This document shows positions 33,350 through 40,501 of a stretch of 64,000 nucleotides of DNA, piece after piece (position 1 is the first letter of the stretch; each line of letters starts with the position of its first letter). The DNA is taken from assembly GCA_013289955.1 (NCBI GenBank), contig JABCYZ010000018.1:1-64000 (forward strand). Direction: 5' to 3'. The DNA is from Acidobacteriota bacterium. GTDB lineage: Bacteria > Acidobacteriota > Terriglobia > Acidiferrales > UBA7541. Under the pieces are notes generated by a model. That model was not told where the DNA came from. It ran no database searches and worked only from the letters and a program-made list of their open reading frames with translations. Made by a program: the position numbers and the translations under genes.

Positions 33350-35839
33350 TTATTTGCGGCCGATGAAGCGGACGCGGAGAGTGAAGGCCAGGCCTTGGCC
33401 GCCGGAGAAGGCGCCGAAGTTGGGGGCGTCGATATTGTTGACGACGGTGTTCGGATTTTGGCGGTCGAGGATGTTGACGGCTTCGACGCGGACGCCCCAG
33501 AGGTAGCCGCGGAAGCCGAATTTTTTTTCCAGGCCGATATTGAGACTGGCGTAAGCGGGGAAACGGGCGGAGTTGGCAGGCCCGACAAGTTGCTGCTCGA
33601 GGTTGACGATGCTGTAGGGGTAGCCGGTGCGGTACTCGAGGAAATAGCTGAGCTGGATGCCCCAGATGTGAGTGGGTGCCCAGCCCCAGGTGACGATGCG
33701 GTTGGGGGCGTCCCAGGCTTCCGGAGCGGATTGCTGGGCGGCATAGAAGATGGAGCCGAGAGCGGGATTGAGGACTTCGTTCGAGTGCGCCACGCTGCGC
33801 GTGTAGGCGGCGTAGATTTCGGTCGATTCGGAGAAGACATGGCGGACGGTGGCGGTGGCGGAGCGGTAGCGGTCCTTGCGGGTGTCTTCGAGCAGGAACG
33901 TGCCGCCCGGTTGGGAGGGTTGCTGATCGACGTAGGCGAAGCCGTGGTAGCCGTTGCGGGCGAGGAGGCTAAGGGTGAGCAGGGTGCTGTGTGCGAATTT
34001 TTGCTGCCATCCGGCGCTCGAGATGTTGAAGCGGGGCTGCTCGAGGCCCGCGACGGGAAGTGCGAATTGGGAGACTACCGGGCTCGGGGCGACGGTGTTG
34101 CCGGCGTTGTCGTAGAAGGTGTCGATCTGGCGCTGGTCGAGCGTCTGGCCGATCAGGGAGAGATTGAGCGGTGCGTTATAAATGCCCCAGCCTGCGGTAA
34201 TTTTTGAGGTGTCGTCGCCGAAGGGGAGGAGGTTGGCGGAAAGGCGAGGGCCCGCCATGGCGCTTTGGGTGAAGCGGTCCCAGTCGGTGCGGAGGCCGGC
34301 CTGGAGGACGAGGAATTTCGAGAGGGACCAGGTGTCCTGGACATAGGCGCCGGCTTGGGTGTTCGAGACTTCGGGTGCGGCGGGGCCGGTGAAGGTGGAG
34401 GTGCGCACGACGCAGCCGGGGATGGGTGCGGTGCAGGCGGGGTTGGTCGAGACGCCGCCTTCAAAGGCCTGGAGCGCCTGGATTTCGGTGCGATCGGCGG
34501 CGAGGGAATAGGTCAGGGCGGCGACGTTCGTGCCCGCGGCCAATTGATGAGTGCCATGCCAATGGCGGGTGGCGGCGGGCATACCGGCTAAGGCCTGGAG
34601 GCGCCGGCCGCGCTGGTGGAGGCGCTGGAAATAGTTGCCAGTGGAACCGTTGACGAGAAGAACAAAAGACTCGGTGCCTTGGGGGATGTAATCGAGAGTG
34701 CCGGTGTCGGCGGCGATGCCGAAATCGAAGAGAGTGTCGGCGAGCCAGACCTGGTCTTTTGCGGCGGCAAAGAAACGCTGCTGGTTGCCGGTGACGGTGG
34801 TCGAGACGGGGTCGAGGGCGTCGAGGCCGATGTTGGTGTAGCGGGCGCGATTGTAGAGAAGCGTGGCGTGAAGGATGTGCTTGGGCGTGATGTTGTATTC
34901 GAGGCGCAGAAGATTGTCGCCGGACCAGTTTTCCCAGGTGTTGGCGCCGGCGGGCTGTTGTTTAACGACGGCGAAGGTGTGCTGGATGCTGATCGAATCC
35001 GAGAACCAGAAGCGGCCGCGCTGGAGGGGACCGGAGAAAGTGAAGCGCGGGTACCAGTTGCCGAGGTGGACGCCTTCCTGGACGTTGATGCCGGGAAAGG
35101 GATTGGTGGTTCCGAAGCGCCAGCGGTCGTCGCCGTCGGGAGTCTCGAGACTGAGGATGCTGGTGCCTGCGTGTGCGTAGCCGGCGCTGAAATTTCCCGT
35201 TTGGACTTCGGCGGCGCGGGTGGCATCGACATTGAAGCGCGTGGTGAGCTGGCCGTTGACGGGATCGCCGATTTCGAAACCGTCAAGGAGATATTGCGTT
35301 TCGCCGGAACGGGCGCCGGCGATGTGGAGGTTGTTGGCGTTGTCCTGCGTGATTTCGGGGAGAGCGACCAGGCTTTCCGCCAGCACGTGGGGGCTCGGGA
35401 CGGGAATGTCGCGAATGTCGCGGGCGGTGAGAGTGTCGCGCTCGGCGGTGTCTTGCGGATCGATCTGGTTGGCGGGAGCCGTGACCTGGACTTGTTCGTG
35501 AAGCTCTTCGGCGTGATTCAGAATCAAAGAGAATTCGTTGGGGCCAGGCTGAAGGGCGATGGGGCGGTTGGTGACCAGGAAGAAGCCTTCTTTCCGGATT
35601 TCGAGTTTGTAATCGCCGGGAGGGAGATTTTTCAAAGTGAAGCGGCCAGCGCCGTCGGTTTCGGCACGGAAGACGTGAGCGGAGGCGTCTTCAAGTTTTA
35701 TCTGGGCGGCCGGGACGGGAACATTGTTTTCATCGAGGATAATGGCCGAGCAGACGGCCAAGTCTGCCGCGCGAGCCGGCAGAGAGGCGAGCACCATGAG
35801 GCCGGCGAATAGAGAAGTAAATAGACGAGCGATCCTCAT
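33350..35839 (-). CDS. TonB-dependent receptor-like outer-membrane protein (Oar-like)
   Basis: An 829-residue outer-membrane protein with a signal peptide (FTSLFAGLMVLASLPARA). A carboxypeptidase-regulatory/CNA-B-like domain (about 30-110, TDGAGRFTLKNLPPGDYKLE) precedes a plug (DIRDIPVPSPHVLAESLVAL, YLLDGFEIGDPVNGQL) and a long beta-barrel ending in aromatic FTLRVRFIGRK. This build matches the Oar/TonB-receptor family expanded in Acidobacteria. No obvious TonB box lies before the plug. It is on the same strand as the MNIO operon, 99 bases after it, and could be read from it; if so it may handle the operon's product. Substrate unknown. Confidence 0.88.
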   Translation of the reverse strand: MRIARLFTSLFAGLMVLASLPARAADLAVCSAIILDENNVPVPAAQIKLEDASAHVFRAETDGAGRFTLKNLPPGDYKLEIRKEGFFLVTNRPIALQPGPNEFSLILNHAEELHEQVQVTAPANQIDPQDTAERDTLTARDIRDIPVPSPHVLAESLVALPEITQDNANNLHIAGARSGETQYLLDGFEIGDPVNGQLTTRFNVDATRAAEVQTGNFSAGYAHAGTSILSLETPDGDDRWRFGTTNPFPGINVQEGVHLGNWYPRFTFSGPLQRGRFWFSDSISIQHTFAVVKQQPAGANTWENWSGDNLLRLEYNITPKHILHATLLYNRARYTNIGLDALDPVSTTVTGNQQRFFAAAKDQVWLADTLFDFGIAADTGTLDYIPQGTESFVLLVNGSTGNYFQRLHQRGRRLQALAGMPAATRHWHGTHQLAAGTNVAALTYSLAADRTEIQALQAFEGGVSTNPACTAPIPGCVVRTSTFTGPAAPEVSNTQAGAYVQDTWSLSKFLVLQAGLRTDWDRFTQSAMAGPRLSANLLPFGDDTSKITAGWGIYNAPLNLSLIGQTLDQRQIDTFYDNAGNTVAPSPVVSQFALPVAGLEQPRFNISSAGWQQKFAHSTLLTLSLLARNGYHGFAYVDQQPSQPGGTFLLEDTRKDRYRSATATVRHVFSESTEIYAAYTRSVAHSNEVLNPALGSIFYAAQQSAPEAWDAPNRIVTWGWAPTHIWGIQLSYFLEYRTGYPYSIVNLEQQLVGPANSARFPAYASLNIGLEKKFGFRGYLWGVRVEAVNILDRQNPNTVVNNIDAPNFGAFSGGQGLAFTLRVRFIGRK

Positions 35840-35938: not shown

Positions 35939-36214
35939 CTAGTGCACAAAGCGGAAGAAACGAAAACGCGAGAGACGCGTTTTGAGGGCGGCGAACCAGG
36001 TGCGGCGGCGTTTTTGGTGACGCTTTTTGGCGAAGCTGCGCGCGGCCATTTCAAGGCCGATCCAGTCGAGCCTTTCAAGGGCGGCTGATTGCTCTTCCGA
36101 GAGGCCGGCTCTTTTGGCTTCCTCGCGCGGATTGGCTTTGAAATCAGCGCGGGCATGGGCGTCCGTGTAGAGGCGGGCGAGGAAGATTTCGAGTTGCGTG
36201 GCGTCGGAACTCAT
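35939..36214 (-). CDS. Small basic partner protein of the DUF692 enzyme
   Basis: A 91-residue protein whose ATG overlaps the stop of the DUF692 gene (ATGA), a strong sign of translational coupling. The first 60 residues are helical (LEIFLARLYTDAHARADFKA, NPREEAKRAGLSEEQSAALE, RLDWIGLEMAARSFAKK). I recognise the pattern 'LYTD-x-R-x-F-x-A-x-P-x-x-x-A-x-x-AGL' from small proteins next to DUF692 genes. The C-terminus is extremely basic and aromatic (RRRTWFAALKTRLSRFRFFR). MNIO systems usually need a partner that binds the leader of the precursor; this could be that partner or a reduced DUF2063/BufC-like protein. Function not proven. Confidence 0.72.
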   Translation of the reverse strand: MSSDATQLEIFLARLYTDAHARADFKANPREEAKRAGLSEEQSAALERLDWIGLEMAARSFAKKRHQKRRRTWFAALKTRLSRFRFFRFVH

Positions 36215-37080
36215 CGGACGGCCTCGACGGGATGATATCGGCGGGCACGGCCTTTGGCGAGGGCGCGGCGAGCTTCCCCAATTTGCGCGAGGAGAGAGTC
36301 CATGGAGGGGTAGTCGCCGTCGCGTTCGAGGATTACGGTGAGCGGGGCGGGGGCGCGGGCGGCCGTCTCTTCGAGGAGGTCGAAGACGGGATCGGGAACG
36401 TCGTGAAGATGATCGTCGAGAAGGCGTTGGGAGCCGTCGGGGGCGGAGACGAATTTGCCGCCGGCGATGTGAATGCCGGCGATGCGCTCGGGGGGAATCT
36501 GGCGTATGAATTCGAAAGGATCGTAACCGTGGTTGAAGCCGTTGGCGAGGACGTTGTGAAGATCGAGGAGCAGGGCGCAAGGGGAGGCGGCGAGGATGCC
36601 GTTGAGCCACTCGGATTCAGAGAGCGGGCTCGCCGGCGGATCGATCAGCGTGGCGATATTTTCAACCAAAGGCTTGGCGCCGACGGCAGCCTCAGCGCGA
36701 TCGAGATTGGCGGCGGTGGCGTCTACCGTTGAGCGGTTGCGAGGCGGTGCGGCGAGATGGCCGATTTCAATGCCGCCGGCGCGGACGAAAGCCAGATGCT
36801 CGGACCAGAATTCCGGGCGGACTTGGTCCACAAGGCGCGCCATTTGATCGAGGCGCCTGGTTTCGGCGGGAGCCGAAGAGGCCAGGCCGAGACTGATGCC
36901 GTGGAGAACGACAGGGACCTGCGCCGCCAGCGTTTTGAGGGCGCGGACTTGGCTGTGCGGCGCGGCGAAAAAATCGTCAGCGATGACTTCGAGAAGATCG
37001 ATGTCATCTAGATGCTCGAGAATCCCGGCAGCCAGATCGGGGCGCCAGCCGAGGCCGACTCTGTCAGTGAGGCTGTCCAT
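36211..37080 (-). CDS. DUF692/UPF0276 family, multinuclear non-heme iron oxidase (MNIO)
   Basis: A 289-residue TIM-barrel enzyme of the DUF692 family, known from MbnB, TglH and BufB to modify cysteine residues in ribosomally made peptides. All expected iron-ligand segments are visible: LHGISLGLAS (His60), WSEHLAF (Glu94/His95), LVENIATL (Glu140), LLLDLHNVLANG (Asp173, His175, Asn176), AGIHIAGG (His204), LDDHLHDVPD (Asp223, His224) and ILERDGD (Glu252). Length fits the family. It starts 6 bases after the TIGR04222-like gene and overlaps the small partner gene. The Cys-rich C-terminal tail of the gene upstream is the natural substrate candidate, which is an inference. Confidence 0.93.
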   Translation of the reverse strand: MDSLTDRVGLGWRPDLAAGILEHLDDIDLLEVIADDFFAAPHSQVRALKTLAAQVPVVLHGISLGLASSAPAETRRLDQMARLVDQVRPEFWSEHLAFVRAGGIEIGHLAAPPRNRSTVDATAANLDRAEAAVGAKPLVENIATLIDPPASPLSESEWLNGILAASPCALLLDLHNVLANGFNHGYDPFEFIRQIPPERIAGIHIAGGKFVSAPDGSQRLLDDHLHDVPDPVFDLLEETAARAPAPLTVILERDGDYPSMDSLLAQIGEARRALAKGRARRYHPVEAVR

Positions 37081-37086
37081 TTTATT

Positions 37087-38034
37087 TTAGCCCCCGCAAC
37101 CGCCGCAGCCGCCGCCGCAACCACCACCGCCTCCGCAGCCACCCCCGCCGCCACTGCCACAGCTGCTGGATGTACCGCACGAAGAGCTGCCGGAACCCCA
37201 ACCGGAGAAGCCCGGTCCGCGGGCCGGTCCCGGCGGGCGCAGCGCCATCACCGAGGGAAAGAGGATGGGGGAGACTTCCGCGAGTCCGTAGGCGGAGGCT
37301 AGCCAGACCAGGTCGGAAGTTGCGCCGCCGGGACGAAGAGAAGCGGCACGCTGGCGGAGCGAGCTGAAAAGAGATTTTACGTCCTCGAGAAATTTTTCAC
37401 CGCGCACGGTGCGAAAGGGATTGCTGGTTCTGAAAACGACGAAAGCGGCGAGACCGGAAAGAAGGATGAGAAAGAAAATGTTGGTGCGGCCACGGGAAAG
37501 AGCGACAAGGATTTTGACAAGTGCGACGCCGAGGAGGATCCCGATGGCAATGGAAACGCGGAGGAGGCGGGCTCGACGAATTTCTTCGTCGGGGAGGAGG
37601 CCGAATTTTTCGAGGTTGGTGGCGTACTCGAAACAGGCCGTGCAGCCTTCGAGGGATGCGAGTGTTGAGTGAATGGGCTGAGCCGTTTTGAAGGCTTCAA
37701 GGATGCGCTTTTCTATGGGGCGTTTCACGGTGCCGATAAGGGCGGGGTCGGTGAGTAGGAGGCGGCTGTCGGCGCTTAGGGGTGAGAGGGTGGAAGTTCC
37801 GGAGCTTTTTAGAGTGAGGAGACCGCGGTCGATAAGAGAGAGCGAGGCAACGCGAAGGGCTTCGCTTTCGCCGCCCCGCAAGTAGGCGACAAAGTAGGGA
37901 TCGTCGATGGGAGGCTTGCCGGTGTCGCGATTCTCACTGAGGCGGCGAAGAAGGGTGAGGGCTACGAGGACCAGCCAGGAAAAAAAGATGTAGAAGACGA
38001 GAAATTCCGGGCCGCGAAGATCAAAGGGATTCAC
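37087..38034 (-). CDS. TIGR04222-like membrane protein with Cys/Gly-rich tail
   Basis: A 315-residue membrane protein. An N-terminal TM (FLVFYIFFSWLVLVALTLL) leads into a cytoplasmic domain with DDPYFVAYLRGGESEALRVA, then SLIDRGLLTL and EKFGLLPDEE-type helices. Two TM segments follow near residues 165-205 (SIAIGILLGVALVKILVAL and FFLILLSGLAAFVVF). The last 35 residues are almost only Gly, Ser and six Cys (SSSCG, SSSCG, GGCGG, GCGGC). This is the plan of the 'near_uncomplex' TIGR04222 family, often next to DUF692. I set the start at GTG 38034, overlapping the gene upstream by 14 bases; a longer frame to 38295 is Pro/Arg-rich shadow. The tail may be modified by the MNIO. Confidence 0.85.
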   Translation of the reverse strand: MNPFDLRGPEFLVFYIFFSWLVLVALTLLRRLSENRDTGKPPIDDPYFVAYLRGGESEALRVASLSLIDRGLLTLKSSGTSTLSPLSADSRLLLTDPALIGTVKRPIEKRILEAFKTAQPIHSTLASLEGCTACFEYATNLEKFGLLPDEEIRRARLLRVSIAIGILLGVALVKILVALSRGRTNIFFLILLSGLAAFVVFRTSNPFRTVRGEKFLEDVKSLFSSLRQRAASLRPGGATSDLVWLASAYGLAEVSPILFPSVMALRPPGPARGPGFSGWGSGSSSCGTSSSCGSGGGGGCGGGGGCGGGCGGCGG

Positions 38035-38794
38035 GAGGCACCTCGGCAGAGAGCGCTTCGGCTCGGGAGTGCATGCGGCAGGCAAGATCGAGGAGAGGAA
38101 AGAAAAGGCGCGGGGCTTCGCCGGGAGTGGAGACGTGTGTTTCCTGCGTGGCGGCGAGGCGAGCGGAGAGCTGGGACCAACCGGGAATGGCGAGCTCTGC
38201 GCCCATCGACTGCAGGGCCTCGGAAGGGGAAGGCGCGGGGCGTCCTTCGAGGTCCAGGAGAACAGCGGCGTAGGAACGGAGAGGACCAAGTGCACCCGCG
38301 ATCAACAAGCTGAGTTGTTCTTCGCGGAGGCTGCGCCCCACGTAGGCGGCGCGCAGGCGAAGAATGAAGTTGAGTAGCTGCTGGCGGAGTTGACGGATTT
38401 CGGCGTCGCGAGGGATCGTGAGAGACGCGAAGGGATCATCGCCGAAGAGAATGGCGCGGCGGTGTCGAATATCGGCAAACTTGGGGGCGAAGGAACGAGC
38501 GGCCTGAGGAATTTCGTCCTTCAAAAGAAACATGGGATGGAGCTGGATGGCGGCTTGGGCGACGCGCAGAGCCTGACGGAGTCGGTCGGCCTTGTCCTGT
38601 GGGAAAGAGACAAGGACCAGAATCAGATTTAAGTCCGAGGTCGCGCGAAGTTTGCCTTCCGCGGCGCTTCCGAAGAGCACGACGGAAAGAAGGTCGGGGC
38701 CGAAAGCATCTTTTGCGGATTGCAAAAAGAAATTCAGAACCTCGGCGAAAGGAGGAGGTAGCTGCGGCAGAGGAAGTGGCGTGGAGGAACTCAT
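38021..38794 (-). CDS. Nucleotidyltransferase-fold protein
   Basis: A 257-residue protein with an N-terminal nucleotidyltransferase domain: the signature VVLFGSAAEGKLRATSDLNL. In active enzymes the loop is G-S-x8-10-D-x-D; here it reads S-D-L-N, so the second metal-binding Asp is Asn. Residues about 130-250 are helical (LRQQLLNFILRLRAAYVGRS, LIAGALGPLRSYAAVLLDLE) and resemble a substrate-binding/HEPN-like bundle. It is the first gene of the four-gene MNIO operon and overlaps the next by 14 bases. Possible roles are modification of a partner or a regulatory fold that has lost catalysis. Function unknown. Confidence 0.8.
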   Translation of the reverse strand: MSSSTPLPLPQLPPPFAEVLNFFLQSAKDAFGPDLLSVVLFGSAAEGKLRATSDLNLILVLVSFPQDKADRLRQALRVAQAAIQLHPMFLLKDEIPQAARSFAPKFADIRHRRAILFGDDPFASLTIPRDAEIRQLRQQLLNFILRLRAAYVGRSLREEQLSLLIAGALGPLRSYAAVLLDLEGRPAPSPSEALQSMGAELAIPGWSQLSARLAATQETHVSTPGEAPRLFFPLLDLACRMHSRAEALSAEVPRESL

Positions 38795-38896: not shown

Positions 38897-39412
38897 TCAG
38901 TCTGCCATCCATTCCGCTTTGACAAGCATTTCACGGGCAACATCGCTCACGGAACGGTTTTCGCTGGTGACGCGGAAATCTTCCAGATGCGCGCGGTCAA
39001 GGATCGTGTTGAATATTCGGGCGCGAGCAACGTATTCGTGCTGCGATATGCCCGTTTCGCGCATCTTGACGCGCTGCTGCATCGTTTCGACGCTTGCCGT
39101 AAGGCGGCAGACGACTGTATTGGCTGCTGAAAAAATGCCGAGACAGAGTTCCAGTTCCGCGCGGTCTTCTATCGCGCGCGCCAGCAGGAATCGCACTACG
39201 CCGATCGAAGTATAGTTCAGGCAGACAGACTGAAGGTTGCGGTACATCACGGCATCGTTGGCGCCTCCAGGCGGAAGATGCCGAAGCCCGAGCGCATCCA
39301 GGTCAATTGCCGCGTGCGGAATTTGCCGCGACAGGAGGATGTCCGACGCTTCGCCCAGAACCGTCGTCTTGCCTGCTCCCATGGTGCCGGTGATGATCAG
39401 GAGCGATCCCAT
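38897..39412 (-). CDS. P-loop nucleotide kinase-like ATPase
   Basis: A 171-residue P-loop protein. Walker A is GTMGAGKTTVLGEA (residues 9-22). A DxD-type Walker B/substrate motif follows (HAAIDLDALGLRHL), and CRLTASVETMQQRVKMRE resembles the lid of small-molecule kinases (shikimate/adenylate/AAA_33 types). It lacks a TM segment or signal. It sits 17 bases after the TrkA-N gene on the same strand, so the two probably form an operon. The substrate cannot be assigned; a Zeta-toxin or phosphotransferase-like role is possible but not supported further. Confidence 0.78.
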   Translation of the reverse strand: MGSLLIITGTMGAGKTTVLGEASDILLSRQIPHAAIDLDALGLRHLPPGGANDAVMYRNLQSVCLNYTSIGVVRFLLARAIEDRAELELCLGIFSAANTVVCRLTASVETMQQRVKMRETGISQHEYVARARIFNTILDRAHLEDFRVTSENRSVSDVAREMLVKAEWMAD

Positions 39413-39429: not shown

Positions 39430-40146
39430 TCAGCGAGCCGCGCCGAGAGAATCGAGGTGCGAGGAGATGCCGCTGAAGGCGCTTTTGGAGCTGCTGATGA
39501 CTTCGTTGGCGCCAAGGCTTTCAAGGATCTCCGTGAACTCGTCGAGGTAGCAGCGGACAATGATGTGCGTTTTTTTGTTGCGATCGCGGGCGCGCTTGGT
39601 GACGAGGAGTGCGGTTTCGATGTTGTTGGAAGTGATGATGACGAGCCTGGCGTGGTCGATGCCTGCATCAGCGAGCGAGCTTTCCTGCTTGGCGTCGTCG
39701 ACGATGATGGGTTCGCCGTCGCGAATGAGGTCATCGACGGCGGCGGCGTCTCGGTCAATGAGAACGTAAGGCTGCTTGGCGCGGCGGAGGTGCTCGACGA
39801 TGCGAATGCCAAGGTGAGTGTAACCGACGATGACAACATGGTTTTGCATTTCTTTGGCGAGCATGCGGCAACCTTCCTGCGGATTGTAACGCTGCAACGC
39901 CTGCAGCAAGAAGATGGAAATGACGATCCCGAACAGGACGCATTGTCCCCAGAAGGAGTAGAGAGCCCAGAAGGAATCGGCACGATAGCGGAAATAGATG
40001 GCGTTGAGAAAGGAGTCGCTCAGGGAAAGATGTTCCCAGTAGTGAAAAGCAATCGTGCCGAGGGCGAACCAGAATCCGATAAGCACGAAACCCCAGCGGC
40101 TTTGCCGGAGGAAGATAAGCAGGCGGATCCAGAAGAAGCGGCGCAT
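39430..40146 (-). CDS. TrkA-N (RCK) domain membrane protein without a K+ selectivity filter
   Basis: A 238-residue protein. Two TM segments flank a re-entrant region (WGFVLIGFWFALGTIAFHYW, and WGQCVLFGIVISIFLLQAL), then a cytoplasmic Rossmann/RCK domain with HVVIVGYTHLGIRIVEHL (G-x-G-x-x-G variant) and LIDRD binding the nucleotide ribose. It has the plan of a two-TM K+ channel, but the pore region reads YFRYRADSFWALYSFWGQ and has no TVGYG or GYGD filter. It may be a regulatory subunit or an unusual channel. I set the start at 40146 because the upstream 33 codons are basic and unlike the family. Confidence 0.8.
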   Translation of the reverse strand: MRRFFWIRLLIFLRQSRWGFVLIGFWFALGTIAFHYWEHLSLSDSFLNAIYFRYRADSFWALYSFWGQCVLFGIVISIFLLQALQRYNPQEGCRMLAKEMQNHVVIVGYTHLGIRIVEHLRRAKQPYVLIDRDAAAVDDLIRDGEPIIVDDAKQESSLADAGIDHARLVIITSNNIETALLVTKRARDRNKKTHIIVRCYLDEFTEILESLGANEVISSSKSAFSGISSHLDSLGAAR

Positions 40147-40501
40147 GGGCTGTCGGCCAGAGCGACAGGGCGCATTGTAGCCTTCTGGCAAAGGCTTCCG
40201 CCAGAGGTTCTCCGCGCGGCGAGCGCTTCTTTCCTGGCCCACCACTCGTGCTAAACTAACTGGATTCTAGGCACGCAGCTCAGGATCCAAGGATTCATGT
40301 CATTTTCCTCCCAACGGATTATAGATTGGATATCGGAATCGACGAACTTGAGGCAAATGTTACTGTGCTGTTATAGCTGGGATTCGGCTGGCGGCTTGAC
40401 GTAGTTGGAGGGATTGAGACGGTTTGGTGAGATTGTGGAAATGTATGGACAAATCAGAAGTCTTCCGAAGTGGGGCCGATGCACGTGTCACCAGGCAATG
40501 C
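40147..40501. other. Gap without a supported gene
   Basis: About 350 bases between the TrkA-N gene and the end of the 820-codon gene. I see no ORF, RNA or clear terminator. It marks the change from core-like genes to the accessory block. Confidence 0.4.

Follow-up and report, generated by a model that had tools for sequence, protein, structure and literature searches.

A conserved four-gene cassette proposed to modify the cysteine-rich tail of a TIGR04222 membrane protein

In a 64,000-nucleotide stretch of an Acidobacteriota genome (contig JABCYZ010000018.1, positions 1 to 64,000; hereafter the window), the minus strand carries a compact group of four genes (38794-35939) that encode a nucleotidyltransferase-fold (NTase) protein, a TIGR04222-domain membrane protein with a Cys-containing Gly/Ser tail, an enzyme of the MNIO (DUF692) family and a small leader-like protein. 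We propose, with a probability of about two in three, that this cassette modifies the Cys-rich tail in situ, as part of a membrane-anchored protein. In the mechanism we envisage, the MNIO enzyme, held or guided by the small protein, would oxidize the tail cysteines, most likely to thiooxazoles with the loss of four hydrogens per Cys, while the NTase-fold protein would act on, or hold, either the Gly-rich tail or the membrane protein that carries it. The modified tail could then serve as a membrane-tethered metal ligand or sensor, the metal probably being copper by analogy with the bufferins. The role of the tail as a tethered MNIO substrate is well supported because its cysteines are constant among related loci, because it persists when either the maturase or the membrane scaffold is exchanged, and because no separate Cys-rich precursor was found.

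The original prediction, made from the DNA letters alone, had described these four genes as one operon, and its coordinates were reproduced, with profile matches and predicted folds in agreement. The TIGR04222 gene begins with a GTG codon at 38034 (MNPFDL in the family consensus) and shares 14 bases with the NTase gene; a 6-base gap separates it from the MNIO gene, whose stop codon is overlapped by the ATG of the small-protein gene. The membrane protein scores 90.5 bits against the NCBIfam TIGR04222 profile (cutoff 43), and the enzyme scores 230.4 bits against PF05114 (cutoff 25, E=3e-68). The enzyme was also said to keep its iron ligands, and the positions shared with TglH are indeed all present (H60, H95, E140, D173, H175, N176, H204, D222, H224 and E252). 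The predicted model of a natural fusion of MNIO and small protein, from locus L031, superimposes on TglH with a Z score of 29.3 and a root-mean-square deviation of 2.4 over 267 aligned residues. The tail, GSGSSSCGTSSSCGSGGGGGCGGGGGCGGGCGGCGG, contains six Cys. Among the window's small open reading frames on the operon strand, none provides a separate Cys-rich precursor and the tail alone qualifies, as first supposed; the remaining small Cys-containing frames all lie on the opposite strand.

Table 1 Features of the cassette and a nearby channel gene in the window
Feature	Position	Strand	Description
NTase-like protein, 257 residues	38021..38794	-	Two domains: AadA-type nucleotidyltransferase and HEPN-like helical bundle
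TIGR04222-domain membrane protein, 315 residues, GTG start	37087..38034	-	Three predicted transmembrane segments and a further, borderline hydrophobic stretch
Gly/Ser tail at the C terminus, six Cys; proposed MNIO substrate	37090..37212	-	End of the TIGR04222 protein
MNIO (DUF692) enzyme, 289 residues	36211..37080	-	PF05114 match
Small protein, 91 residues, no Cys	35939..36214	-	LigA/Os1348/SonA-leader-like; proposed MNIO partner
TrkA-N ion-channel-like protein	39430..40245	-	Channel recurs near related cassettes; possible link, outside the core

A search of 84,980 genomes with the MNIO sequence as query yielded 55 loci, and a second set of loci was collected through TIGR04222 instead. The records of the 55 loci are labeled as Acidobacteria, Chloroflexi, Proteobacteria (several classes, with many Janthinobacterium), Myxococcales, Verrucomicrobia, Armatimonadetes, Planctomycetota, Acidimicrobiia and FCPU426. 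The cassette is thus conserved in at least eight phyla, with the proviso that some labels may err because many of the records are metagenome bins. Profiles place the genes mostly in the order NTase-TIGR04222-MNIO-small protein; where a locus has room for all genes (n=50), the small protein is present in 48 and the NTase in 38, so that the combination of TIGR04222, DUF692 and nucleotidyltransferase genes, for which a neighborhood search had originally been suggested, is recurrent. Every one of the 55 full-length MNIO-linked tails contains Cys, with counts of 3-8. When the window is compared with L017, its closest relative, the ratio of nonsynonymous to synonymous substitution is 0.10-0.23 in all four genes at a synonymous divergence of ~0.7, and all four are therefore under purifying selection. 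Together with recurrence across many phyla, this selection argues that the cassette is not a chance assembly. Because the whole cassette occurs in culturable Janthinobacterium, the proposal can be tested.

The tail is retained when its enzyme is exchanged. In the acidobacterium G062, whose assembly is rated 99% complete, no MNIO gene was found anywhere in the genome; an NTase gene and a TIGR04222 gene with seven tail Cys are followed by a channel gene and then by a radical SAM gene that overlaps the channel's stop codon. This radical SAM protein scores 496.7 bits against the SbtM equivalog profile TIGR04082 (cutoff 350; profile positions 195-516), a cutoff exceeded in G062 alone among 247 genomes. 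SbtM converts Cys to thiooxazole with the loss of four hydrogens (PMC11002830), and bufferin MNIOs yield thiooxazole as well (PMC12452194 and PMC12538549). In G062, an SbtM-like enzyme thus stands in for the MNIO beside the NTase-TIGR04222 pair, even though its fold is unrelated to that of MNIOs and its substrate in the studied system is a free precursor peptide. Two further genomes without an MNIO, G507 and G587, encode a TIGR04222 protein followed directly by a weaker relative of the G062 enzyme; no more SbtM-like cases came from additional TIGR04222 searches in the vicinity of G062 and G587. The scaffold can also be exchanged. In L227 (genome G116), the gene between those of the NTase and the MNIO encodes a membrane protein of ~174 residues with the tail CGSASGSCSSGGGGCGGGGCGGGGCGGCGGD and without a match in Pfam or NCBIfam, and a divergent small protein follows; here the Cys/Gly tail and the MNIO are kept and the TIGR04222 domain is not. 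Separately, G144 (L149 4035-8083) has a gene for a DUF2207/TIGR04222-like protein with many Cys in its terminal CHSA-repeat tail, and a PqqD-radical SAM/SPASM gene coupled to it comes next.

The small protein bears the signature LExFLARLYTD...GLS...ID..GL..AA.SF..KR, with no conserved Cys and a variable C terminus, and for these two reasons it would make a poor substrate. We propose that it is instead a partner of the MNIO. It matches LigA/Os1348 profiles at marginal sequence scores, and a profile search of the PDB matched it to SonA, a borosin precursor, and to nitrile-hydratase-alpha regions. The LigA-like leader fold of SonA and the NHLP leader domains is thus echoed in its profile, but the small protein lacks a core peptide and Cys, and is either separate from the modifying enzyme or fused to it. 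Such fusions, at the MNIO C terminus, occur in L031, L035 and L069, with a degraded version in L004/L062; in a fold search with the model of MNIO plus small protein, the matches listed spanned the MNIO part only. The PME-type 2 MNIO partners of Antoine et al. are defined by structural similarity to the DUF2063/RRE partner NGO1945 or TglI; for the small protein the evidence comes from its sequence profile, which points to the LigA/SonA leaders. Its profile is specific. It matched 10 of 247 acidobacterial genomes, nine of them with TIGR04222 and MNIO and the tenth carrying the L227 variant, and among 398 pseudomonadote genomes it matched only the starting Janthinobacterium and none of the 397 others.

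Assignment of the NTase rests on its fold because its PF01909 score falls just under the gathering threshold (19.3 against 21). Its AlphaFold model (predicted local distance difference test score 91.9) matches AadA over both domains, with a Z score of 13.1 to 4cs6, and it shares this two-domain architecture with AadA/ANT(3'')(9) adenylyltransferases and MNT-HEPN pairs. In AadA, the metal-binding Asp pair consists of D47 and D49 and the base is E87; in the alignment, this pair corresponds to D54-x-N56 of the cassette protein, and E94 is spaced like the base. Unlike AadA and MNT-HEPN pairs, therefore, it has Asn in place of the second metal-binding Asp, as do all cassette members examined and nine relatives from TPM operons, and it is linked to Gly-tailed membrane proteins rather than to antibiotics or a toxin. 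The motif set of an active nucleotidyltransferase (GS...DxD, with two catalytic Asp and a third acid) is incomplete, and some distant relatives also lack a counterpart of the AadA base. As a catalyst, the NTase is probably altered or impaired, and its activity may have been lost.

The company kept by the NTase offers a further clue. Across the 247 acidobacterial genomes, its profile scores at least 321 bits in exactly four, all beside TIGR04222, and the next score is 106. More distant relatives lie in nine TPM operons without an MNIO, eight of which include LemA, with the NTase gene between that of a Gly-tailed TPM-domain protein and, mostly, the LemA gene. The Gly-rich tails of these nine operons contain no Cys, except for one with a single Cys. 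By its gene neighborhoods, then, the NTase follows Gly-tailed membrane proteins and not MNIOs, and in these NTase operons the tails gain Cys where an enzyme that modifies it is also encoded. The original prediction had singled out a leading nucleotidyltransferase as unusual for MNIO systems. It is undescribed there, as the literature searched contained nothing relevant on an NTase with an MNIO, or with LemA or TPM; because it tracks Gly-tailed membrane proteins, however, its presence is no peculiarity of the window's operon. The window's own genome carries a second, distant NTase gene in a TPM-NTase-LemA operon (L235; G000:C25 near 4746).

On which side of the membrane the tail lies bears on how it could be modified. 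By hydropathy, the TIGR04222 protein has three segments and, before the tail, a borderline fourth; a search for a solved structure of the protein returned only implausible low-complexity matches. Few positive charges occur at the N terminus and many follow the first segment, and the folded part is therefore probably cytosolic. Provided that the borderline stretch does not span the membrane, the tail would be cytosolic too. Inspection of the charges around the hydrophobic segments of the L227 membrane protein likewise suggests a cytosolic tail, and we consider this location more likely than a periplasmic one.

Several observations weigh against our proposal. In PMC12452194, the tail is predicted to be periplasmic, with many exceptions noted; the borderline fourth segment allows either side, and a periplasmic tail would have to be modified prior to export. 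Both exchanges described above, of the MNIO for SbtM and of the scaffold, occur in one genome each. TIGR04222 tails with three and two Cys are found in G059 (L135) and G605 (L140), genomes without an MNIO, and no SbtM-like gene was found within ~12 kb in either; a Cys tail therefore does not require a known maturase. Moreover, the original prediction had named an MNIO gene beside a TIGR04222 gene without a Cys tail as a case that would speak against it, and three Streptomyces-like loci (L183, L184 and L185) have this arrangement. Their architecture is different, consisting of a peptidyl-tRNA-hydrolase-like gene, an MNIO with a C-terminal extension and TIGR04222, with both the NTase and the small protein absent, and we therefore limit the substrate claim to the window's cassette subfamily. 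In L183 and L184, an extra membrane-associated gene lies between the MNIO and TIGR04222 genes. In four other genomes (G604, G700, G721 and G593), the MNIO gene is elsewhere in the genome, away from TIGR04222. In L137 and L140, the TIGR04222 gene and a small open reading frame before it sit inside the ffh-rpsP-rimM-trmD-rplS operon, with the MNIO elsewhere or absent.

The G059 and G605 tails would also fit an alternative in which the Cys/Gly tail stays unmodified and binds metal or forms disulfides, while the MNIO and its helper modify an unlinked peptide. One candidate for such a peptide is encoded in the window's own genome, where a separate bufferin-like operon (L127; G000:C2 near 451704) contains a signal-peptide precursor with repeated CKGKNSCKGKGGC, a DUF2063-like gene and a DoxX-like gene. 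This precursor already has its own adjacent MNIO, however, and in the subfamily considered here the cassette MNIO always lies beside a Cys tail, which survives both exchanges; we regard this alternative as unlikely. Less probable still is nucleotidylation of Ser or Thr in the Gly/Ser tails by the NTase as the main modification, with Cys oxidation by the MNIO secondary. MNT-type nucleotidyltransferases AMPylate partner proteins, and both the fold matches to such relatives and the association of NTase relatives with Gly-rich-tailed membrane proteins, MNIO present or not, are consistent with this idea; it sits poorly with the loss of the second catalytic Asp in cassette and TPM-operon members alike, with the loss of the base counterpart in some relatives and with the absence of the NTase from 12 of the 50 cassettes.

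About equally improbable, or slightly more so, is the notion that the MNIO acts on the small protein itself, as a precursor of a ribosomally synthesized and post-translationally modified peptide (RiPP) altered at non-Cys residues, with the membrane protein as exporter or immunity partner. Its likeness to Os1348/NHLP and borosin SonA leader domains would suit a precursor, and some MNIOs modify non-Cys residues, according to PMC12452194, but the region past the domain is not conserved and is often absent, and fusion to the MNIO C terminus better fits a partner. Finally, TIGR04222/DUF2207 and TPM proteins commonly have Gly/Ser tails, so the tail might be merely a flexible, low-complexity linker and the gene linkage incidental. 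This explanation is strongly disfavored by overlapping genes in many phyla, by the fusions and exchanges, and by the constancy of Cys where a Cys-modifying enzyme occurs in this operon type.

Modification of the tethered tail, the reading we prefer, is in its central idea already published. Antoine et al. 2025 (PMC12452194) describe TIGR04222 membrane proteins, encoded beside an MNIO, whose C-proximal segment is rich in Cys; they report that such membrane proteins often precede MNIO genes and have Cys-containing Ser/Gly tails, and propose these tails as possible MNIO substrates. The tethered substrate put forward in the original prediction is thus strengthened by the constant Cys tails and the exchanges without being new. 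The sections consulted mention no nucleotidyltransferase, no LigA/Os1348 partner, no fusion of MNIO and partner, no SbtM replacement and no scaffold swap; the unexplained very small proteins that the authors place after MNIO genes (adjamnio-V) may be the small protein described here. In the literature searched, we likewise found neither the conserved NTase, the leader-like partner and its fusion, nor the exchanges of enzyme and scaffold, and these features lead to a specific prediction, namely thiooxazoles on the tail of a membrane protein.

Among known systems, the bufferin operons (BufA/BufB/BufC) come closest, as BufB is the nearest characterized MNIO model and the two would share Cys substrates and a thiooxazole product. 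The cassette MNIO nevertheless scores 192.7 bits against the BufB equivalog cutoff of 310 (NF050167). In bufferin systems, the precursor is a small peptide exported by Sec and the partner belongs to DUF2063, whereas the cassette encodes a polytopic membrane protein and a partner without a DUF2063 match; it has no small Sec-signal precursor, and the tail alone is Cys-rich. Nor does it resemble a classical RiPP system with a short precursor made of leader and core, as the proposed substrate is the tail of a 315-residue membrane protein.

If our proposal is correct, machinery known for free natural-product peptides would also work on fixed parts of membrane proteins, creating permanent copper-binding groups at the membrane. 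Replacement of an oxygen-using enzyme by a radical SAM enzyme on the same substrate would mean that two unrelated chemistries serve one function, and would predict the product. TIGR04222 proteins, the Gly-rich TPM tails and an orphan nucleotidyltransferase family would also gain their first context. More broadly, we tentatively envisage a general class, possible although on balance doubtful, in which different membrane scaffolds (TIGR04222, the unnamed small membrane protein and DUF2207-like proteins) carry interchangeable Cys-rich tails. Unrelated maturases (MNIO, the radical SAM enzyme SbtM and possibly PqqD-radical SAM) would act on these tails, the first two producing the same thiooxazole, and the degenerate nucleotidyltransferase would be a Gly-tail factor shared with TPM-LemA operons.

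The operon strand also carries, ~100 bases downstream of the operon, a gene (33350-35839, minus strand) whose product resembles TonB receptors of the outer membrane and contains a carboxypeptidase-regulatory domain. Upstream on the same strand is a P-loop kinase-like gene (38897-39412, minus strand). A search for plasmid carriage of the cassette gave no match, and PADLOC, applied to the possibility of a defense system, gave only weak generic NTase matches. Across the locus set, no neighbors outside the cassette are conserved except a TrkA-N/RCK channel in five loci: the window (Table 1), L017 (3394-4197), L019 (2491-4233), L024 (824-2305) and L134 (6011-8083, minus strand). The channel gene abuts the NTase gene in L019 and falls between the TIGR04222 and radical SAM genes in L134, and a link between the cassette and ion transport is possible.

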